A stretch of 64,000 nucleotides of DNA from Streptomyces sp. ISL-36 (GTDB lineage Bacteria > Actinomycetota > Actinomycetes > Streptomycetales > Streptomycetaceae): the NCBI RefSeq assembly GCF_018614205.1, contig NZ_JAGGOS010000009.1:1-64000 (forward strand). Direction: 5' to 3'. How positions within the stretch are numbered: position 1 is the first letter of the stretch; every line of letters begins with the position of its first letter. This document shows, piece by piece, positions 23,851 through 33,429 of this stretch. The notes below the pieces were generated by a model. The model searched no databases. It worked only from the letters and a program-made list of their open reading frames with translations, and was not told where the DNA came from. The position numbers and the translations under genes were made by a program.

Positions 23851-25746
23851 ATGACGCAGGTCGAACGGCAGCAGTGGGACGTGGTCGTGGTCGGCGCGGG
23901 CGGCGCGGGGCTGCGGGCCGCGATCGAGGCGCGCGAGCGGGGCGCCCGTACGGCCGTGATCTGCAAGTCCCTCTTCGGCAAGGCCCATACGGTGATGGCC
24001 GAGGGCGGCATCGCCGCCTCCATGGCCAACGCCAATCCTCACGACACCTGGCAGATCCACTTCCGCGACACCATGCGCGGCGGGAAGTTCCTCAACCAGT
24101 GGCGGATGGCGGAGCTGCACGCGCGCGAGGCCCCGGACCGGGTGTGGGAGCTGGAGACCTGGGGCGCCCTCTTCGACCGTACGGCCGACGGCCGGATCTC
24201 CCAGCGCAACTTCGGTGGACACGAGTACCCGCGGCTCGCCCATGTCGGCGACCGGACGGGCCTGGAGCTGATCCGCACCCTCCAGCAGAAGACCGTCGCC
24301 CTGCAGCAGGAGGACTTCCACGAGACCGGGGAGTACGACTCCGGCCTGAAGGTCTTCCAGGAGTGCACGGTCACGCGCGTCCTGAAGGACGAAGCGGGCC
24401 GGGTGAGCGGGGTCTTCTGCTACGAGCGGGAGACCGGGCGCTTCTTCGTCCTGGAGGCCCCCGCGGTCATCCTCGCGACCGGCGGGATCGGCAAGTCCTT
24501 CAAGGTGACGTCGAACTCGTGGGAGTACACCGGCGACGGGCACGCGCTGGCGCTGCTGGCGGGCGCGCCGCTGGTGAACATGGAGTTCGTCCAGTTCCAT
24601 CCGACCGGCATGGTCTGGCCGCCGTCCGTGAAGGGGATCCTGGTCACCGAGTCCGTACGCGGCGACGGCGGCGTGCTGCGGAACTCCGAGGGCAAGCGGT
24701 TCATGTTCGACTACGTCCCCGACGTCTTCAAGGACAAGTACGCGCAGACGGAGGAGGAGGGCGACCGCTGGTACGAGGACCCGGACAACAACCGGCGCCC
24801 GCCCGAGCTGCTGCCGCGCGACGAGGTGGCGCGGGCCATCAACGCCGAGGTGAAGGCGGGGCGGGGATCGCCGCACGGCGGGGTGTTCCTCGACGTGTCG
24901 ACACGGATGCCGGCCGAGGTGATCAAGCGGCGGCTTCCGTCGATGTACCACCAGTTCAAGGAGCTGGCGGACGTGGACATCACGGCGGAGGCGATGGAGG
25001 TCGGGCCGACCTGCCACTACGTGATGGGCGGTGTCGCGGTCGACTCGGACACGGCGGCGACGGTCGGCGTGCCGGGGCTCTTCGCGGCCGGTGAGGTCGC
25101 GGGCGGCATGCACGGCTCCAACCGGCTCGGCGGCAACTCGCTCTCCGACCTGTTGGTCTTCGGGCGGCGGGCGGGGCTCCACGCCGCCGAGTACGCGGCG
25201 GGGGCGGGGCGCCCGGCGGTCTCCCCGGCCGCGGTGGACGCGGCGGCGGCCGAGGCGCTGGCCCCCTTCGGGGCGGGTGAGGCGGCCGTGGCCGAGGGCC
25301 CCGTGGAGAACCCGTACACCCTCCACCAGGAGCTGCAGCAGACCATGCACGACCTCGTCGGCATCATCCGGCGCGAGGGCGAGATGACCGAGGCCCTGGA
25401 ACGGATCGCCGAGCTGCGCCGGCGGGCGCGGCGGGCCGGGGTCGAGGGGCACCGGCAGTTCAATCCCGGCTGGCACCTGGCACTGGACCTGCGGAACATG
25501 CTGCTGGTGAGCGAGTGCGTGGCGCTGGCGGCGCTGGAGCGCACCGAGAGCCGGGGCGGACACACCCGTGAGGACTGTCCCTCGATGGACCGGGCCTGGC
25601 GTCCGGTGAATCTGCTGTGCCGCGCGGGGGACGACGGTGTCGTCCTGGAACGGACGCGTACCGACCCCATCCGTCCGGACCTGCTCGCCCTCTTCGAGAA
25701 GGAGGAGCTGGTCAAATACCTCGCCGAAGAGGAGCTCTACGAGTGA
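23851..25746 (+). CDS. sdhA: Succinate dehydrogenase/fumarate reductase flavoprotein subunit
   Basis: 631 residues. FAD-binding VVVVGAGGAGLRAAIEA at the N-terminus; KAHTVMAEGGIAAS holds the His that carries covalent FAD in this family; the substrate region includes GGHEYPR, EFVQFHPTGM and the C-terminal CHYVMGGV...NRLGGNSLSDLLVFG. It oxidises succinate (or reduces fumarate) at the cytoplasmic face. The direction of catalysis cannot be told from sequence. Its stop codon overlaps the Fe-S gene start (GTGA at 25743-25746). Confidence 0.93.
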   Translation: MTQVERQQWDVVVVGAGGAGLRAAIEARERGARTAVICKSLFGKAHTVMAEGGIAASMANANPHDTWQIHFRDTMRGGKFLNQWRMAELHAREAPDRVWELETWGALFDRTADGRISQRNFGGHEYPRLAHVGDRTGLELIRTLQQKTVALQQEDFHETGEYDSGLKVFQECTVTRVLKDEAGRVSGVFCYERETGRFFVLEAPAVILATGGIGKSFKVTSNSWEYTGDGHALALLAGAPLVNMEFVQFHPTGMVWPPSVKGILVTESVRGDGGVLRNSEGKRFMFDYVPDVFKDKYAQTEEEGDRWYEDPDNNRRPPELLPRDEVARAINAEVKAGRGSPHGGVFLDVSTRMPAEVIKRRLPSMYHQFKELADVDITAEAMEVGPTCHYVMGGVAVDSDTAATVGVPGLFAAGEVAGGMHGSNRLGGNSLSDLLVFGRRAGLHAAEYAAGAGRPAVSPAAVDAAAAEALAPFGAGEAAVAEGPVENPYTLHQELQQTMHDLVGIIRREGEMTEALERIAELRRRARRAGVEGHRQFNPGWHLALDLRNMLLVSECVALAALERTESRGGHTREDCPSMDRAWRPVNLLCRAGDDGVVLERTRTDPIRPDLLALFEKEELVKYLAEEELYE

Positions 25747-26513
25747 GCAGCTATCAGGCCGCCTTCAAGGTGTGGCGGGGCGACACGGACGGCGGCGGAC
25801 TCAGGGACTTCACGGTCGAGGTGAACGACGGCGAGGTCGTCCTCGACATCATCCACCGGTTGCAGGCCACACAGGCTCCGGATCTGGCGGTGCGCTGGAA
25901 CTGCAAGGCGGGCAAGTGCGGTTCGTGCTCGGCCGAGATCAACGGGCGGCCGCGACTGCTGTGCATGACCCGGATGTCGGTCTTCGACCGGGCGGAGACG
26001 ATCACCGTGACCCCGCTGCGGGCCTTTCCCGTGGTGCGCGATCTGGTGACGGACGTGTCCTTCAACTACGCGAAGGCGCGGGAGGTCCCGGCGTTCGTGC
26101 CGCCGGAGGGGCTCGCCCCGGGCGAGTACCGGATGGGTCAGCGGGACGTGGAGCGCTCGCAGGAGTTCCGCAAGTGCATCGAGTGCTTCCTGTGTCAGGA
26201 CACCTGTCATGTGGTGCGGGACCACGAGGAGAACAAGACGGCGTTCGCCGGGCCGCGTTTCCTGATGCGGGTGGCGGAGCTGGACATGCACCCCCTGGAC
26301 GCGGCCGCGGAGGCGGGCCTCGACCGGAAGCGGACGGCGCAGGAGGAGCACGGGCTCGGGTACTGCAACATCACGAAGTGCTGTACGGAGGTGTGCCCGG
26401 AGGGCATCAAGATCACCGACAACGCGCTGATCCCGCTGAAGGAGCGGGCCGTGGACCGGAAGTACGACCCGCTGGTGTGGCTGGGGAACAAGATCCGGAG
26501 GCGGGGCGTGTGA
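25743..26513 (+). CDS. sdhB: Succinate dehydrogenase/fumarate reductase iron-sulfur subunit
   Basis: 256 residues from GTG 25743; the longer open frame starting at 25617 lies inside the flavoprotein gene. 2Fe-2S cysteines Cys54, 59, 62 and 74 (CKAGKCGSC, LLC); ferredoxin-like 4Fe-4S/3Fe-4S cysteines Cys145, 148, 151, 155 (CIECFLCQDTC) and Cys208, 213/214, 218 (CNITKCCTEVCP). The CFLC spacing supplies the full set for a 4Fe-4S cluster. It relays electrons between the flavin and the haem anchor. The last codons and the stop are the first unit of a 26-bp tandem repeat. Confidence 0.93.
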   Translation: MSSYQAAFKVWRGDTDGGGLRDFTVEVNDGEVVLDIIHRLQATQAPDLAVRWNCKAGKCGSCSAEINGRPRLLCMTRMSVFDRAETITVTPLRAFPVVRDLVTDVSFNYAKAREVPAFVPPEGLAPGEYRMGQRDVERSQEFRKCIECFLCQDTCHVVRDHEENKTAFAGPRFLMRVAELDMHPLDAAAEAGLDRKRTAQEEHGLGYCNITKCCTEVCPEGIKITDNALIPLKERAVDRKYDPLVWLGNKIRRRGV

Positions 26514-26574
26514 ACCGGGCGCGTAGGCGCGGCGTGTAGACCGGGCGCGCGGGCAGGGCGTGTGAACCGGCGTG
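26505..26574. repeat. 26-bp tandem repeat across a stop codon, three copies
   Basis: GGCGTGTGAACCGGGCGCG at 26505-26523 recurs at 26531-26549 (TAGA for TGAA) and 26557-26574 (shortened at the end), a constant 26 bp apart. The first copy contains the iron-sulfur subunit stop codon. Confidence 0.8.
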
Positions 26575-26591
26575 CAGGCGGGGCCGGCCGG

Positions 26592-27611
26592 TCAGTGCCA
26601 GCCCTCGCGGTAGGCCTGCCAGTCCCCCTCCTTCGCGGCGAAGTCGACGTAGAGCGCGACGCCGAAGCGTTCGCGTGCGGGGTCCGTGCGGCCCAGGCCC
26701 AGCCGGGTGCCGCGGACGGCGGCCGCGACCGTCTCCGCCGACTCGTGGTGGCCGAGGTCGTCCTCGTGGAAGAACGGCAGCCCCATCAACAGGTCGGTGG
26801 ACTCGGGCGTGACTTCGAGGGCGAGGCTGGTCTGTTGGGCGACATAGCCGCCATACAGGCTCTCCAGCGGCATCCAGGTGTCGTACGACATCACGGCGAT
26901 CTGGTCCACGCGGCGGGCGACCTGCCCGAAGAACTCCTGGGACCACCACTTCTCGCTGTCGCTCACCGCGCCGAGGGCCGAGTGCGCGCCCGGCAGCGGG
27001 TCGATCTGGTGGGCGGCGACGGAGAGCGGCGCCCTGCGGGCCCTCGTCAGCTCTCCCAGGTCGTCGAGGAGGGAGAGGTAGTGGCGGTCGTCCGAGTGGA
27101 GGGGCTCCAGGTCAAAGTGGACGCCGTCGAAGCCGGCGTCCAGGATCTGCCGGGCGGAGACCACGACGGCCGCCCGGGACGCGGCGTTCTCCAGGCGCAG
27201 TCCGTCCGGGCCCTCGGTGGCCAGGATGTCTCCCAGCCACGCGTGCACCCGTATCCCCGGCATCGTCCGGTGCACGGTCTCGATCAGCCACTTCGCGCGC
27301 GGGTAGCGCGTCGCGGGGAGCGTTCCGTCGTGCTCCAGCGGGCCCGCGTGGACGTAGAGGTCGCGTATCCCGGTCCCCTTGATCCGGGCCGCGAAGGCGG
27401 TGAGGTCGGCGTCCTTCTTCCGGCCGTCCACCCAGGCGTGGCCGAGCCAGATGGCGTCCTTCCCGCGGGTCTTCGTCCCTTCGCGGAGATCCCCCGCGTA
27501 GTTCACCCGCAGGGCGAGGGCGCTGCCGGCCGGCGGCACGACCAGGAGAAGGACGAGGCCGAGAGCGACCCACCGCCCCCGCCGCCACCAGCCCCGTACG
27601 CGTGCGTTCAC
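26592..27611 (-). CDS. Membrane-anchored GH18-like (chitinase-fold) protein
   Basis: 339 residues from GTG 27611; a GTG at 27623 is also possible. A single N-terminal span (RWVALGLVLLLVVPPAGSALAL) acts as anchor or signal. The body looks like a TIM barrel: LGHAWVDGRKKDAD, the strand DAGFDGVHFDLEPL that matches the GH18 DGxxxDxE strand with Glu in the acid position, VMSYDTWMP for the substrate strand, and GLPFFHEDD. No carbohydrate-binding module. Substrate unknown; GH18-fold proteins also include non-catalytic binders. Convergent with the dehydrogenase operon and divergent from the TPM-domain gene. Confidence 0.75.
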   Translation of the reverse strand: MNARVRGWWRRGRWVALGLVLLLVVPPAGSALALRVNYAGDLREGTKTRGKDAIWLGHAWVDGRKKDADLTAFAARIKGTGIRDLYVHAGPLEHDGTLPATRYPRAKWLIETVHRTMPGIRVHAWLGDILATEGPDGLRLENAASRAAVVVSARQILDAGFDGVHFDLEPLHSDDRHYLSLLDDLGELTRARRAPLSVAAHQIDPLPGAHSALGAVSDSEKWWSQEFFGQVARRVDQIAVMSYDTWMPLESLYGGYVAQQTSLALEVTPESTDLLMGLPFFHEDDLGHHESAETVAAAVRGTRLGLGRTDPARERFGVALYVDFAAKEGDWQAYREGWH

Positions 27612-27737
27612 CCGAGCCCCCACGTTCTCCGTCGTCGTGATCCCCACCGTAGAGGCGGCCACCGACAGTGACGCCGGGGACCTGTACAGGGGTTCCGCCC
27701 GGTCGCGAGTGAACAGATCGGGACATAACCTCCCCAT

Positions 27738-29873
27738 GTGACGCGAACAGCCACCCGAGCCCCTCTCCGGGTCCTTCTCGCGGTGCTGGTGGCGGCGTGG
27801 TGGCCGGCCGGGCCCGCCGTTCACAGCGCCCATGCCGACGACCCCGTCGTGCTCTCCCGCGAGGGGCAGGTCACGGACAGGGTGGGTGCGCTGGGCGACC
27901 GCCGCAGCGCGGTCACCCAGGCTCTGGACCGGCTCTACGACGACCGGCGGGTCCAGCTCTTCGTCGTCTACGTACGGGACTTCTCCGGGCGATCGGGCCA
28001 GAGCTGGGCCGACGCCACGGCCGAGCGCAACGGTCTGGGCACCAACGACGTCCTGCTCGCGGTGGCCACCCACGACCGTCAGTACGGCTATTCGGCCGAT
28101 CCCGCCTCGCGGTTCACGCAGGCTCAGCTCGACGACGTGGCCCGGACCGCGATCGAGCCCGCGCTGCGGCAGAACGACTGGGCCGGTGCCGCGATCGGGG
28201 CGGCGAACGGCGTCGACGCCGTCCTCGCCGGCCTGCCGGTGCCCGTTCCCACGATCACACCCGGCGCCGCGGACCCCGGCGGCGCGGGCGACGGGGGAAG
28301 CTCGGCGACGGACTTCATCCTTCCGGTCGTCCTCGTCGGCGGGGCGGGGGCCGTGGCGGCGTACGCGTACACCCGACGGCGCCGGCGGACCGAGACCCGC
28401 ACCACACCGGGTGGCGGACAGGGCTGGGGCGCGCCGAAGGAGCCCGCGCTCCCCCCGCTGGGCGAGCTGGACGGACGGGCCCGGCAGGAGCTGGTGACCA
28501 CGGACGACGCCGTCCGTACCAGTCAGGAGGAACTCGGCTTCGCGACCGCCCAGTTCGGCGAGGAGGCGGTGAAGCCGTTCACGGAGGCGGTCGGGTTCGC
28601 GCAGGCGGAGCTGACGGCCGCGTTCCGGCTGCGGCAGCAGCTCGACGACGCCTTCCCTGAGGACGACGCCACCCGCCGCTCGATGCTCGACGAGATCGTC
28701 AGGCGGTGCGGCGCGGCGAACGCGCGGCTGGACGCGGAGGCGGAGGACTTCGACCGGTTGCGGGCGCTTGAGCGCAATGCCCCGGAGGCGCTGACCGCGG
28801 CCGAGGCCGCGTTCCGCGAACAGACCGGTCGGGTCGGCACGGCGGAGGCGACGCTGGCCGCGATGCGGGGGCGGTACGCCGAGTCCGCGGCGTCACCCGT
28901 CGCGAGCGACGTGGAACAGGCCAAGGACCGGCTGGTCTTCGCGACGACCCATCTCGACCGGGCGCGGCAGAGCGTCGACGCGGGCGACAACGGCGCCGCG
29001 GCCGTCCACATCCGGGCCGCCGAGGGCGCCGTCGACCAGGCGGCCCGGCTCAGCGAGGCCGTGGACCGGCGGGCCCGGGAGCTCGCCGAGGCGGTCGGCA
29101 GGCTGCCGACCGCGCTCAGCGAGACCGAGGCCGACCTCGCCGATGCGCGCGGGCTGCTCCAGGGCACGGCCGAGGGGGTCCCCACCGCCGATCTCCAGGG
29201 CCGTATCGCCCGGGCGGAGGCCGTCGTGGCCGATGTCCGCAGGACCGTGGACGCGGGCCGCTACGACCCGATCGACGCGCTGCGCCGGGTCGAGGAGGCG
29301 GACGGCGCGCTCGACGAGGCCCTGGAGGGCGCACGGGAGCGCGAGTCGGGCACGCGGCGAGCGCGTGCGCTCCTCGACCAGGCGATGCTGACGGCCCGTT
29401 CGGCGATCGGCGCGGCAACCGACTACATCACGACGCATCGCGGGGCCGTCGGCAGCGAGGCCCGTACCCGCCTGGCCGAGGGCCGGCGCCGGCTGGAGGA
29501 GGCGGAAGCGCTCGCCGCCGCCGAGGACCCGCAGGGGGCGCTGGCCGAGGCCCGGCAGGCGGACGCGCTGGCCCGGCGGGCGCAGGACCTCGCCGAGCAG
29601 GACGTACGGACGTATGGGAACCCGAACGGCATGGGCGGTGTAACAGGGGTGGGAGGAGGAGGTGGCGGCGGGCTCGGCGGTGCGGTGCTCGGCGGCATCA
29701 TCCTCGGCGGACTGTTCGGCGGCGGAAGGGGAGGCGGCCATGGCGGGGGGTTCGGTGGGGGTTTCGGCGGCGGTGGCGGATTCGGGGGCGGCGGGTTCGG
29801 CGGGGGCGGCGGACCCGGCAGTTTCGGCGGCGGGGGGACCCGCGGCCGGCTGGGCGGCGGCGGCCGTTTCTGA
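27738..29873 (+). CDS. Secreted/membrane TPM-domain protein with coiled coil and Gly-rich tail
   Basis: 711 residues from GTG 27738. Signal peptide (RVLLAVLVAAWWPAGPAVHSAHA), then a TPM (YgcG/Psb32-like) domain at about 38-155 (LYDDRRVQLFVVYVRDFSG, GTNDVLLAVATHDRQYGY), a Pro/Gly linker, one membrane span near 195-212 (FILPVVLVGGAGAVAAYAY) followed by RRRRR, then about 420 residues of long Ala/Glu/Arg-rich helices predicted as coiled coil, and a tail of GGGFGG-type repeats. TPM domain should lie outside, coiled coil inside. Followed 35 nt later by pspA, which suggests a joint role in membrane stress. Confidence 0.85.
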   Translation: MTRTATRAPLRVLLAVLVAAWWPAGPAVHSAHADDPVVLSREGQVTDRVGALGDRRSAVTQALDRLYDDRRVQLFVVYVRDFSGRSGQSWADATAERNGLGTNDVLLAVATHDRQYGYSADPASRFTQAQLDDVARTAIEPALRQNDWAGAAIGAANGVDAVLAGLPVPVPTITPGAADPGGAGDGGSSATDFILPVVLVGGAGAVAAYAYTRRRRRTETRTTPGGGQGWGAPKEPALPPLGELDGRARQELVTTDDAVRTSQEELGFATAQFGEEAVKPFTEAVGFAQAELTAAFRLRQQLDDAFPEDDATRRSMLDEIVRRCGAANARLDAEAEDFDRLRALERNAPEALTAAEAAFREQTGRVGTAEATLAAMRGRYAESAASPVASDVEQAKDRLVFATTHLDRARQSVDAGDNGAAAVHIRAAEGAVDQAARLSEAVDRRARELAEAVGRLPTALSETEADLADARGLLQGTAEGVPTADLQGRIARAEAVVADVRRTVDAGRYDPIDALRRVEEADGALDEALEGARERESGTRRARALLDQAMLTARSAIGAATDYITTHRGAVGSEARTRLAEGRRRLEEAEALAAAEDPQGALAEARQADALARRAQDLAEQDVRTYGNPNGMGGVTGVGGGGGGGLGGAVLGGIILGGLFGGGRGGGHGGGFGGGFGGGGGFGGGGFGGGGGPGSFGGGGTRGRLGGGGRF

Positions 29874-29908
29874 CCCTGACAGGCCCTTCGCGTTCAAGGA
29901 GAAGAAGC

Positions 29909-30616
29909 ATGACCAAGCAGACCGTCCTCGGCCGTGTCGCCCAGCTGGCGAGGGCCAACATCAACGCCCTGCTGGACCAGGCAGAGGACCCGCAGAAGAT
30001 GCTCGACCAGCTGATCCGCGACTACACGAACAACATCGCGGAGGCGGAGCAGGCGGTGGCGACGACCATCGGCAATCTGCGGCTGATGGAGCAGGACCAC
30101 CGGGAGGACGTGGACGCGGCCGAGGAGTGGGGTGTCAAGGCCCTGGCCGCGAGCCGGAAGGCGGACGGCTTGCGGGCCGGTGGGCAGACGGCGGACGCGG
30201 ACCGGTTCGACAACCTGGCGAAGGTGGCGCTGGGGCGCCAGCTCCAGTCGGAGAAGGAGGCGAAGGCGGCGGAACCGACGATCGCCTCGCAGACGGAGGT
30301 CGTGGAGAAGCTCAAGAGCGGCCTGGACCAGATGAGGACCAAGCTGGGCGAGCTGAAGGCGAAGCGCGACGAGCTGGTGGCGCGGGCCAAGTCCGCGCAG
30401 GCGCAGAACCAGATGATGGACGCGGTGAAGAACATCGACGTCCTGGACCCGACGAGCGAGCTGAGCCGGTTCGAGGACAAGGTGCGGCGCGAGGAGGCGA
30501 GGGCGATGGGCAAGCAGGAGCTGGCGGCCTCCTCGCTGGACGCCCAGTTCGAGCAGTTGGACGCCCTCGGCGACAGCGCGGAGGTCGAGGCCCGGCTCGC
30601 GGCGCTCAAGGGGTAG
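29909..30616 (+). CDS. pspA: PspA/IM30 (Vipp1) family membrane-stress protein
   Basis: 235 residues, almost all helical. MTKQTVLGRVAQLARANINALLDQ is the amphipathic lead; AEDPQKMLDQLIRDYTNNI is the family signature; long charged coiled-coil helices follow (SEKEAKAAEPTIASQTEVV; KRDELVARAKSAQAQNQMMD). PspA forms oligomers on the inner face of the membrane and protects it from leakage. RBS AAGGAG 8 nt before ATG. It shares a transcript with the TPM-domain gene and ends at the hairpin 30632-30676. Confidence 0.9.
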   Translation: MTKQTVLGRVAQLARANINALLDQAEDPQKMLDQLIRDYTNNIAEAEQAVATTIGNLRLMEQDHREDVDAAEEWGVKALAASRKADGLRAGGQTADADRFDNLAKVALGRQLQSEKEAKAAEPTIASQTEVVEKLKSGLDQMRTKLGELKAKRDELVARAKSAQAQNQMMDAVKNIDVLDPTSELSRFEDKVRREEARAMGKQELAASSLDAQFEQLDALGDSAEVEARLAALKG

Positions 30617-30631
30617 GCGCCCCGCGGCCCT

Positions 30632-30676
30632 CCCCGCGGGCCCGGGCTGCGACGGTGCTCGGCCGGGCCCGCGGGG
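30632..30676. terminator. Bidirectional terminator between pspA and SpoIIE-type gene
   Basis: 14-bp perfect stem (30632-30645 with 30663-30676) and 17-nt loop, in the 74-nt gap between convergent stops. Confidence 0.75.
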
Positions 30677-30690
30677 TGGTGCGGCGGTGG

Positions 30691-33285
30691 TCAGAACATG
30701 CTCAGCAGCTGTTCCACGGTCGGTTCGGTGCTGCCGTCGCCGTCCGGCAGGGGCAGTTCGAACCAGACGGTCTTGCCGCGGGGGGTGCGGCGCGAGCCCC
30801 AGGCGGCGCTGAGGAGCCCGACCAACTGCAGTCCGCGTCCGCCCTCGTCGGTGTCCCGGGCCCGGCGGCGCCTGGGCTGGACCAGTCCGGCGTCCCAGAC
30901 CTCGCAGACCAGGGTGCGGTCGCGCAGCAGCCGCAGCCGTATCTCACCCTCGCCGTAGCGCAGGGCGTTGGTGACCAGTTCGCTGACGAGCAGTTCGACC
31001 GTGTCCACCAGCGGTTCGAGGTCCCAGGCGGTGAGCTGGGCGCGGGCCAGTTCACGGGCCCGGCCGACCGAGCGGGGTTCCCTCGGCAGCCGCCAGTCCC
31101 CCACCGCGTCGCAGGGAAGCCCCTGGATGCGGGCCATGAGCAGGGCGATGTCGTCCTCGCCGTGCTGGGTGTCGAGGGTGGTCAGGACGTGGTCACAGAC
31201 GTCCTCCAGGGGGCGGGCGGGGTCGGTGAGCGCGCTGCGGAACGCGCTCAGTCCCTCGTCGAGGGGGTGGTCGCGGGACTCGACCAGTCCGTCGGTGTAG
31301 AGGGCGAGCAGCGAGCCCTCGGGCAGCTCGACCTCCACCTCCTCGAAGGGTTCGCCGCCGACGCCGAGCGGCATCCCGGGCGGCACGTCGAGGAGGAGGG
31401 CCTGTTCGCCGGGTTCGACGAGGACCGGCGGCAGATGGCCGGCGTTGGCGAAGGTGCAGCGCCGGGTGACGGGGTCGTAGACGGCGTAGACGCAGGTGGC
31501 GAGGTAGACCTCGGAGAGTTCCGGTCCTCGGGCCTTGTGGGCGCGGGCGCTCTGCTGGGCGCCCGCGGGGGCGCCGAGGCCGCGGGCGATCTCGTCCAGG
31601 TGGGAGAGGACCTCGGCGGGTTCGAGGTCGAGCTGGGCGAGGGTGCGGACGGCGGTGCGCAGTTCGCCCATGGCGACGGCGGCGCGCAGCCCGCGGCCCA
31701 TGACGTCGCCGATGACGAGCGCGGTGCGGTGGCCGGGGAGTTCGATGACGTCGAACCAGTCGCCGCCGACCTCGGTGGCCGTGGTGCCGGGGAGATAGCG
31801 GCAGGCGATGTCCAGGCCGGCCGCCTCGGGGTCGCCGGGCGGGAGCAGGCTGCGCTGCAGGATGAGGGCCCGCTCGTGCTCGCGGCGGTAGAGGCGGGCG
31901 TTGTCGATGCAGACCGCGGCGCGGGCGGCCAGTTCGACGGCGAGGGCCCGGTCCCGCTCGCCGAAGGGCTCGCTGCCCTTGGTGCGGGAGAACTGGACGA
32001 GGCCGACGACGGTGTCGTGGGCGACCATCGGGACGACGAGGGTGGACTGGACGAGGCTGCCGTCGGCGCCCGGCACCGTCCGTACGCGTCCGGTGCGCAG
32101 CGCTCCGGCGCAGGGGGAGTTGAAGGGATAGCGGTGGACGGACCCGACCTCGACGGGGCCGGTGCCGGTGGGGCCGGTGCCGCAACAGCTGTCGTCGGAG
32201 CCGGGGACCGTGGGGGTGCCCGGGTTCCTGAGCGGGGTGTCGGAGACGGCGCTCGCGAAGGCGACCCGGCGGAGTTCGGCGCTGCCCGCTCCGTAGCCCA
32301 CGTCGTGGGAGCTCCCCCAGCGTCCGGGCGGGGCCTCGTCGCCGGTGAGCAGGCCCTGGTAGAGGTCGACGGAGGCGAGGTCGCAGAAGCCGGGGACGGC
32401 GACGTCGAGGAGTTCGCGGGCGGTGGCCTCCAGGTCGAGGGAGTTGCCGATGCGGGCGCCCGCCTCGTTGAGCAGTGCCAGGTTGCGGCGGGCGTTGGCG
32501 GCCTCGCGGGCGGCGTTGTGGCGGCGGGTCACGTCGATGCCGAGTCCGGCGACGCCGATGGGCCGGCCGGTGCCGCTGTGCACGCGGTAGAGGTTGATCG
32601 ACCAGTGGCGCCGGTCGTGGGAGCCGGGCGGGGCGCCGACGATCTGGAGCTCGGTGACGGCGTCGCCGGTCTCCAGGACGCGCTGGAGGGCGGCGGTCAT
32701 CCGCTCGGCCTCGGGGCGCGCGAGGTAGTCGTGGACGGTGCGGCCCCGGTGGTCGTCGGCCGAGCCGCCGAAGACGGTGGCGAAGCGCTGGTTGGCGCGC
32801 TGCACGGTGAGGTCGGTACCGAAGAGGAGAAACCCGAAGGGCGATTGGCCGAAAATGGCCTGCGAGGCGGCGAGGTCGGTCTCGATGCGCCGCAGGGCGC
32901 GTACGTCCACGACGATGCACAGCGCGGCCCGCTCGCCTGCCGGTGTCTCGCTCGGCATGACGTACATCTCGGCGATCCCCTCGCGCCGGGTCTGGCCCGG
33001 GATGCTGAAGGGGACGAGGCCCGTCCATTCCTTGCCGTCGAGGATCTCCGCGACCTGGCGGCGGCCACGCTCGCGCAGGTCGGGAGGCATGAAGGCCTCG
33101 ACCGGGTCCTTGCCCATCGCCTCCTGGGCGGGCACACCGAAGAGGTCGACGGCCCGTCGGCTCCACTGGTCGACGAGCCCGTCGGGCCCTATCGAGAAGG
33201 AGGCGACACGGATGTAGTCATAGATCGAGCCGGGCGGGCTGCTCTGCCACACGACGCCGCTCGCCGACTCAGGTATCTCGCTCAC
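30691..33285 (-). CDS. Multi-sensor SpoIIE-type PP2C phosphatase with HATPase domain
   Basis: 864 residues from GTG 33285, behind GGAGGGGA. Two PAS domains (about 18-130 and 132-260; FGQSPFGFLLFGTDLTVQRA), a GAF domain (about 270-465), a SpoIIE/PP2C phosphatase domain (about 480-715; GGDWFDVIELPG, VIGDVMGRGLRAAV, LALYTDGLVE, EDDIALLMAR carry the metal-binding Asp residues) and an RsbW-like HATPase domain (LVSELVTNALRYG, DEGGRGLQLVGLL). It should dephosphorylate an anti-anti-sigma protein on sensing a signal, and may also act as its kinase. A CC pair in the GAF region (SDDSCCGTG) is a possible metal or redox site. Confidence 0.9.
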   Translation of the reverse strand: MSEIPESASGVVWQSSPPGSIYDYIRVASFSIGPDGLVDQWSRRAVDLFGVPAQEAMGKDPVEAFMPPDLRERGRRQVAEILDGKEWTGLVPFSIPGQTRREGIAEMYVMPSETPAGERAALCIVVDVRALRRIETDLAASQAIFGQSPFGFLLFGTDLTVQRANQRFATVFGGSADDHRGRTVHDYLARPEAERMTAALQRVLETGDAVTELQIVGAPPGSHDRRHWSINLYRVHSGTGRPIGVAGLGIDVTRRHNAAREAANARRNLALLNEAGARIGNSLDLEATARELLDVAVPGFCDLASVDLYQGLLTGDEAPPGRWGSSHDVGYGAGSAELRRVAFASAVSDTPLRNPGTPTVPGSDDSCCGTGPTGTGPVEVGSVHRYPFNSPCAGALRTGRVRTVPGADGSLVQSTLVVPMVAHDTVVGLVQFSRTKGSEPFGERDRALAVELAARAAVCIDNARLYRREHERALILQRSLLPPGDPEAAGLDIACRYLPGTTATEVGGDWFDVIELPGHRTALVIGDVMGRGLRAAVAMGELRTAVRTLAQLDLEPAEVLSHLDEIARGLGAPAGAQQSARAHKARGPELSEVYLATCVYAVYDPVTRRCTFANAGHLPPVLVEPGEQALLLDVPPGMPLGVGGEPFEEVEVELPEGSLLALYTDGLVESRDHPLDEGLSAFRSALTDPARPLEDVCDHVLTTLDTQHGEDDIALLMARIQGLPCDAVGDWRLPREPRSVGRARELARAQLTAWDLEPLVDTVELLVSELVTNALRYGEGEIRLRLLRDRTLVCEVWDAGLVQPRRRRARDTDEGGRGLQLVGLLSAAWGSRRTPRGKTVWFELPLPDGDGSTEPTVEQLLSMF

Positions 33286-33429
33286 GCGACCGTCCCCTCC
33301 AGCTCACCGCACCGGACCGGCCATGCCCGCAGTATTCAGCACTACGGCCCCCGACGGCACGACGTTCACGATCACAGGGTGGTCTCGTTCATTTCAAGCC
33401 GAGCCCGTGGTGATCGTCCTTACCTTCCT

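Follow-up and report, generated by a model that had tools for sequence, protein, structure and literature searches.

Outside the mycobacteria and corynebacteria, we know of no account of how PspA reaches the membrane in those actinobacteria in which its known partners are missing. The question is raised by a locus of Streptomyces sp. ISL-36, found in a stretch of 64,000 nucleotides (contig NZ_JAGGOS010000009.1, positions 1 to 64,000; hereafter the window), in which pspA is preceded by a gene for a predicted one-span membrane protein with a TPM domain (hereafter the TPM gene and the TPM protein). A pairing of this kind is already on record from other bacteria, and the TPM protein with the membrane-guarding PspA is its actinobacterial version, made up of two genes. 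What is new here is that, on the best tree, the state of PspA has changed at least eight times at one Streptomyces locus; where PspA is missing, the TPM domain is mostly absent and the glycine repeat is mostly short. These repeated natural losses offer a way to probe the function of each part.

A TPM-domain membrane protein encoded next to PspA

The features of the pair are the following.

27738..29873, plus strand: TPM gene, encoding a protein of 711 amino acids with a TPM domain, one span, a helical part and a Gly-rich tail (open reading frame with a GTG start)
27738..27836, plus strand: signal peptide, residues 1-33, likely cut after AHA (hydropathy; presumed cleavage site)
27870..28220, plus strand: TPM domain, residues 45-161, predicted outside the cell (PF04536 and structure matches)
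28332..28394, plus strand: membrane span, residues 199-219 (hydropathy 196-214; model helix 199-219, with a low predicted local distance difference test score, pLDDT, there)
28458..29618, plus strand: cytoplasmic helical part, residues 241-627, predicted tandem helical bundles (AlphaFold2)
29421..29480, plus strand: helix-loop-helix DYITTHRGAVGSEARTRLAE, the best-conserved piece of the cytoplasmic part (16-row alignment A1)
29625..29870, plus strand: Gly-rich tail, residues 630-711, with a hydrophobic GGAVLGGIILGG patch and C-terminal GGGGRF (composition, pLDDT)
29909..30616, plus strand: pspA, PspA/IM30 family, 235 amino acids (PF04012)

The two genes lie on the same strand with a gap of 35 nucleotides, in keeping with the initial annotation, which had named PspA as the next gene in an operon-like pair. 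In Pfam, residues 45-161 of the TPM protein match PF04536 (TPM_phosphatase; E = 1.3e-19, 70.9 bits against a cut-off of 22.1) and residues 6-234 of PspA match PF04012 (E = 1.1e-38, 133.5 bits against a cut-off of 33.9). Each is the single match to its family in the assembly of 216 contigs at E <= 0.001. Hydropathy shows a signal-peptide-like segment at residues 13-31 and one span at 196-214 in the TPM protein, and an Arg cluster adjoins the span on its C-terminal side, the positive side being inside. Since the signal peptide is likely cut (Ala33 is invariant in A1, the alignment of TPM protein relatives) and one span follows, the TPM domain should be outside and the remainder inside. Glycine makes up 65% of the final 80 residues, and the GGAVLGGIILGG patch and the C-terminal end of the tail are preserved in most alignment rows.

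AlphaFold2 was applied to the TPM protein of the window and 29 relatives. The model of the whole protein has a mean pLDDT of 81.4. The TPM domain is mostly above 90, the linker is of low confidence, the helices across residues 241-627 are mostly above 90 in 10-residue blocks (lowest 77), and the tail (630-711) is below 50. Residues 238-630 modelled alone also give a series of helices (pLDDT 94.2, predicted template modelling score 0.71). The layout and PspA neighbour reported in the initial annotation are confirmed. Its interpretation as a whole is partly supported. The continuous coiled coil of 400 residues that it had assigned to the inside part is not borne out by the models of the full protein and of residues 238-630, in which this part consists of eleven helices that fold back on one another, ten being 22-59 residues long and the other 7.

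Conservation of the gene pair

We searched a phylum sample of 246 genomes, in which up to four candidates were scored per genome, and found a relative of the TPM protein in 24 (G025 and G045 are weak matches), PspA in 105 and a TPM domain in 51. Judged by their coordinates, the two genes adjoin each other and point the same way in 11 of these 24 genomes, across eight family codes (the window genome G000, G107, G028, G008, G062, G225, G214, G051, G075, G009 and G236). Among named records, the best 80 of 558 relatives were retained and gave 79 loci, which are near kin and nearly all from Streptomyces; PspA is next in 63 of them. Twelve of the 16 others run off a contig end, stopping inside the TPM gene. 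PspA absence in draft genomes can thus be false, because the Gly-rich repeat probably breaks assemblies.

A third sample, of 199 genomes of the genus, contains TPM in 74 genomes and PspA in at least 197. PspAs adjoining TPM genes share 53-90% identity with the PspA of the window in the loci fetched. Unpaired PspAs share 24-31% over most of their length, match in short pieces only, or do not match at 1e-4. Among the matches listed, most sampled Streptomyces carry a PspA with a lower score and another query range, which is probably of the class of sco2168. Again among the matches listed, PspA of the paired type lies within 4 kb on the same strand in 57 of the 74 TPM-bearing genomes, and nine have none. 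It is on another contig in seven genomes (in G364 and G401 PspA on the other contig is near a contig end) and distant from the TPM gene in one (G257). Of the nine without it, a closer look at G312 shows PspA beside the TPM gene (L179, partly inverted and at the end of a contig), and the locus of G323 ends at a contig end. Conversely, two genomes carry the paired type without a TPM match: G352, in which it lies close to the start of a contig, and G408, in which the TPM domain is largely deleted. The genus genomes with a paired-type PspA, that of the window excepted, have at least two PspA matches each among the matches listed. The window genome has one PspA only, for which true loss and an assembly gap (216 contigs) are both possible.

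We compared nine nearby genes at seven pair loci outside Streptomyces. They vary, including photolyase, trypsin-PDZ protease, IS110 transposase, helicase and arginase-like genes among others, and as they differ the pair itself is the conserved unit. These results bear on the possibility that the TPM gene and pspA are neighbours by descent only, with no functional link. Each gene can persist without the other, as this explanation would allow, but the pair spans eight family codes while the examined nearby genes change, and the TPM-PspA partnership has an experimental report in Bacillus, in the passages cited here (PMC8581546). We regard mere co-descent as very improbable. The conservation of the pair in actinobacteria, which the initial annotation had proposed to check, is borne out, and the outcome it had named as contrary, a lack of conserved pairing in related genomes, did not occur.

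Natural losses at the Streptomyces locus

In Streptomyces the locus can be defined by two marker genes.

25617..26513, plus strand: succinate dehydrogenase-type iron-sulphur gene, synteny marker on the TPM side (Pfam Fer2_3/Fer4_8)
30691..33285, minus strand: PAS-GAF-SpoIIE-HATPase gene, convergent, synteny marker outside the operon (Pfam; it adjoins the locus in relatives)

At four named loci (L119, L131, L169 and L172) the TPM gene is complete to its stop and the downstream DNA is visible, and the pspA gene is absent. A clear pspA remnant of 28 residues with 89% identity is left in L131, and short weak remnants in L119 and L172 (E = 0.003 and 0.004), whereas none was detected in the downstream DNA of L169. 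L119 and L131 have an intact TPM domain, whereas L169 has lost part of it and L172 all of it. TPM without PspA is also found between both markers in L174-L177 and L182 (where the SpoIIE-type match is distant, 38%), and beside the succinate dehydrogenase-type marker only in L178 and L181. We further hand-picked 47 genomes of the genus sample with no TPM match and, among the matches listed, a single PspA match that looked to be of the other class by score and query range. Including four genomes of the phylum sample, 28 coil-only proteins, with the helical part and no TPM match, were readable. At least one marker gene stands beside 27 of the 28, and no PspA was found in the 1.5-kb flanks of any of the 28 genes. 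The DYITTHRGAVGSEARTRLAE helix-loop-helix is retained, with small changes, in the four coil-only proteins compared. The helical part and the strictly spaced promoter described below persist where PspA is gone.

A set of 100 proteins was then compared, using TPM and coil profiles built from an alignment that includes the window protein. TPM (at least 80 bits) is present in 65 of the 66 proteins with PspA next door, four of which are outgroup rows from other families, versus 7 of the 34 without. The median number of glycines in the tail is 44 (range 22-56) with PspA versus 13 (7-43) without. Excluded from the set were the 12 named loci truncated by the end of their contig, L101 and L168 because their tails are not in frame, L164 because of a stretch of N, L198, L213 and L214 because their ends are short or truncated, L217 because it could not be read, and L173, L180, L181 and L182, which are disrupted, cut or without a tail that could be read. 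Three further cases of TPM without adjacent PspA thus fall outside this count, L181 and L182 with none next door and L173 with PspA far away. In the genus sample, the median TPM profile score is 53.1 in genomes without a listed paired-type PspA (n = 8, including G323 and omitting G312) versus 71.5 where it is adjacent (n = 57; P = 0.011, kinship ignored).

On a tree of the helical part, the PspA state needs 8 changes, TPM 6 and the tail 3-6 depending on the cut-off. The tree is of a quick kind, with 36 of its 97 inner branches open and two long outgroup branches that meet, which is a warning sign, and the counts carry no direction. We read the PspA changes as losses, since the pair is present in the outgroup rows and across most of the tree. 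The direction fits PspA loss followed by TPM erosion without being statistically significant, and for the tail it depends on the cut-off. Strict co-loss of TPM with PspA is contradicted by TPM without PspA in L119, L131 and L174-L178, and by the converse case of L183.

A candidate receptor for PspA

From the observed architecture, the gene pair, its conservation and the repeated losses, we propose a two-gene PspA recruitment module in which the TPM protein is the membrane anchor and recruiter of PspA, and to this we give a probability of about one half. The TPM protein would sit in the membrane as a type I protein, and its outside TPM domain would bind or monitor something at the outer membrane face. 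Inside, the helical part and the Gly-rich tail would form a docking platform, in which either could carry the PspA-binding segment. On this platform, PspA translated from the shared transcript would be held at the membrane and its oligomers would be seeded. A single TPM protein would thereby do the job shared in Bacillus by YdjG, YdjH and the flotillin-like YdjI. Binding of the TPM protein to PspA, and envelope stress as the signal, are presumed by this proposal. By analogy, the partner interaction (two-hybrid) and the need of a partner for PspA foci are known for the Bacillus relative, in the passages cited (PMC8581546).

Several observations weigh against this reading. The relative and PspA lie apart in 12 of the 24 phylum genomes with a relative. 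Four of the 12 (G023, G128, G182 and G193) are coil-only Streptomyces without a TPM match, and no PspA match was found in G025, one of the weak relatives. Where PspA is missing, TPM is still present in seven proteins and a long Gly tail in six, and L183, where the SpoIIE-type marker is present, retains PspA with most of TPM deleted. A coil-only relative occurs in 25 of the 47 hand-picked genomes (one match is weak), so the helical part must do something besides PspA work. In six independent pairs taken on starred branches of the tree, PspA and TPM give 3.2 in the same direction, 0 opposite and 2.8 without difference (median P = 0.25). For PspA and the tail, the corresponding values are 1.7, 0 and 4.3 at 20 Gly, and 1.8, 1.0 and 3.2 at 25 or 30 Gly; these cut-offs, together with one of 35, were picked after the values were known. 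No YdjI-like gene was found among the nearby genes examined at TPM-PspA loci. In Bacillus, PspA seems to reach YdjG or YdjH via the adapter YdjI, according to the part of PMC9239133 cited here.

If correct, the recruitment module would provide a compact candidate PspA receptor in antibiotic-producing bacteria. The full pair, the pair without TPM, TPM without PspA and the bare helical part make up a natural series in Streptomyces. The locus also joins three literatures: that on the TPM proteins of photosystem II assembly, that on YdjH and PspA of Bacillus, and that on the unvalidated ZipA-like Rv2345/Cg2496.

Fold matches and competing explanations

The model of the TPM domain matches seven solved TPM entries with Z of 15.7-17.7 (including BA41, TLP18.3, Psb32 and cg2496), TLP18.3 and Psb32 being matched at Z of 17.0 and 16.9. 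The closest solved relative by sequence is 2kpt, the N-terminal domain of cg2496. It was also observed that two chains from structures of mycobacterial respiratory supercomplexes, 8hcr_J and 6adq_J, match the TPM domain with Z of 12.0. They provide a lead to an assembly-factor role for outside TPM-like domains in actinobacteria.

One explanation built on these matches is that the TPM protein helps to assemble membrane complexes, for instance the respiratory ones, or to control their quality, with the TPM domain acting outside like Psb32 and TLP18.3 and PspA stabilizing inside. It would agree with the matches to TLP18.3, Psb32, 8hcr_J and 6adq_J and with the position of the window locus beside succinate dehydrogenase-type genes, and a chaperone-like assembly role for TPM with PspA is suggested in the cited passages of Ravi et al. 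2024 (PMC11237479). A common fold, however, does not prove a common function, and none of the nine nearby genes compared at the seven pair loci outside Streptomyces is respiratory. We consider an assembly factor unlikely. Could the TPM domain instead be an enzyme whose phosphatase or ATPase activity sends a signal to PspA? ATP is scarce on the outer side of the membrane, where the domain is predicted to lie, and phosphatase activity is deemed unlikely in the portion of PMC12419801 cited here. Such an enzyme is hardly credible to us.

For the helical part, the top row of VIA-align is EzrA 4uy3 (Z = 14.3, root mean square deviation 3.5, 187 of 194 residues), and the third row is the longer EzrA structure 4uxv (Z = 11.1, root mean square deviation 23 over 374). 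Foldseek gives E = 0.69 for both structures, and unrelated mostly helical models attain a best Z of about 14 in VIA-align. For these two reasons the likeness to EzrA is suggestive and not established. No sequence match of the TPM protein to EzrA was reported in a Pfam scan up to E = 0.1; we take it that Pfam contains an EzrA model. Other matches are regarded as due to coil or composition, namely an NCBIfam polysaccharide chain-length family (E = 0.0037, far below cut-off), a sub-threshold match to DUF2564, and weak PDB matches outside TPM. A second, weak relative of the helical part was seen in G225 apart from its pair (L032, G225:C1:2712382-2713506; E = 1.1e-7, an open frame of 484 residues), hinting at a wider family.

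Since the helical part is found without PspA and TPM, it has a role of its own. It could be that the TPM protein is primarily an EzrA-like envelope or septum scaffold, a membrane-anchored arch of helical repeats, with PspA as a client that is dispensable in some lineages. The first and third VIA-align rows point in this direction, as does the fact that the helical part and its promoter survive where TPM and the paired PspA are both missing. Rv2345/Cg2496, whose cg2496 domain is the nearest solved relative by sequence, is listed as a potential ZipA-like division protein in the cited part of a review (PMC3989709), and this listing together with the EzrA-like match makes a division or wall role the leading rival. 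On the other side stand the non-significant Foldseek value, the Z reached by unrelated helical models and the lack of EzrA in the Pfam scan up to E = 0.1, and the review itself says that the division role still awaits validation (PMC3989709). A scaffold of this kind seems rather doubtful to us. A distinctly improbable elaboration would make the TPM protein an actinobacterial counterpart of EzrA: a membrane-anchored helical arch serving the growth of septum or wall, which in its full form would bear in addition an outside TPM sensor and a Gly-rich tail that license PspA assembly there. PspA, TPM and the Gly repeat would then be a detachable stress cassette on a permanent scaffold, and the coil-only orthologues would be the bare scaffold after cassette loss. 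Recruitment of PspA by the TPM protein is the reading we carry forward.

A promoter-like element and neighbouring genes

Upstream of the TPM gene there is one further feature.

27701..27731, plus strand: promoter-like element GGTCGCG-N16-CATANNCT, putatively of the leaderless type (it ends 6 nucleotides before the GTG)

This element has one match in the window versus 0.02 expected. It is present in 78 of 231 loci, many of which overlap, and all cases span 31 nucleotides though N14-20 was allowed. In 68 upstream regions, CATANCCT occurs in 52 (shuffled mean 0.45) and TCGCG-N12-22-TANCCT in 44 (shuffled mean 0.1). The element is preserved in many coil-only orthologues that have lost TPM and PspA. 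Its −35-like half differs from the usual TTGAC. The GTG start is supported by the element ending 6 nucleotides upstream with a spacing that is fixed in relatives, and the sequence is consistent with a leaderless transcript of the TPM gene. The simple sigma-E pattern GGAAC-N15-17-CGTC was found in none of the 68 upstream regions, which speaks against control of the TPM gene through the type of sigma-E site described for the other PspA locus. No Rfam match was found across positions 25500-33400.

A divergent open reading frame (26592-27731, minus strand), with no Pfam match at 1e-5, begins in its longest form practically at the start codon of the TPM gene. The real start probably lies further inside the frame, which would leave space for the promoter element. 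The SpoIIE phosphatase-HATPase protein stands beside the locus in many Streptomyces; it is a possible sensor neighbour and is not co-transcribed.

Comparison with known systems

The nearest described system is the pspA-ydjGHI operon of Bacillus subtilis, in which a TPM-bearing membrane protein likewise partners PspA (PMC11237479). In ydj-type systems, according to the passages of Ravi et al. 2024 cited here, PspA has as its conserved partner a TPM-domain protein with either a low-complexity part or a long coiled coil (PMC11237479). According to the cited parts of Scholz et al. 2021, YdjH interacts with PspA and with YdjI, PspA foci are lost without YdjG or YdjH, and YdjH helps to anchor PspA (PMC8581546). 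The TPM protein of the window has all the elements of a YdjH-type partner as given in the former account, namely TPM, a span and a low-complexity or coiled-coil part, encoded with pspA (PMC11237479). The difference is that here there are two genes, with the TPM gene first and a helical part of about 390 residues. YdjG and a flotillin-like YdjI are not in the operon, the flanking genes in the window being the convergent SpoIIE-type gene and the divergent one without a Pfam match, and no SPFH/band-7 was seen in the Pfam matches of the nine nearby genes at the seven non-Streptomyces pair loci.

With the sco2168-sco2167 system the locus shares the PspA family and the genus. In the cited part of PMC6767563, sco2168 (PspA) is listed as an operon with sco2167 and with a sigma-E site or target, whereas pspA of the window comes after the TPM gene and before a convergent gene. 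The initial annotation had described the module as being without the known sensors. This holds for the genes adjoining the pair, since pspA is flanked in the window by the TPM gene and the SpoIIE-type gene and no signature partner of the PspBC, ClgR-PspMN or Lia systems is adjacent, and it extends no wider, as PspB and PspC were not searched for genome-wide.

The layout of TPM, span, helical part and tail is shared by the proteins of five genomes of family code f3 in A1, and the gene is not beside pspA in these five. From gene order and a glycyl-tRNA-synthetase-like neighbour in one genome (L188), we take f3 to include Mycobacterium and its protein to be the orthologue of Rv2345; Rv2345/Cg2496 would thus have the same layout in a different gene context. 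EzrA, the nearest solved structure to the helical part in the VIA-align list and a suggestive fold match only, consists of membrane-anchored cytoplasmic helical repeats, and we know of no outside domain in it.

A TPM domain with a Gly-rich tail is also found in short TPM proteins of other families of the phylum, which are presumably of the YgcG type. Of 22 loci taken, 18 gave a complete matching open reading frame. These proteins differ in their length of about 290-355 residues, in having no long helical part and in a tail that ends in Trp in 17 of 18, where the window protein ends in Phe. Going by the coordinates, no listed PspA lies on the same contig as any of the 18. The tail is Gly-rich (at least 30% Gly in the last 50 residues) in 17 of 18, so a tail specific to PspA partners is refuted, and the special role that the initial annotation had suggested for the tail is weakened. 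Our literature search, limited to open-licence papers, found no text on a TPM-PspA pair in Streptomyces. The concept of a TPM-PspA partnership is already in print, and the main new value of this locus is the Streptomyces series of natural losses.

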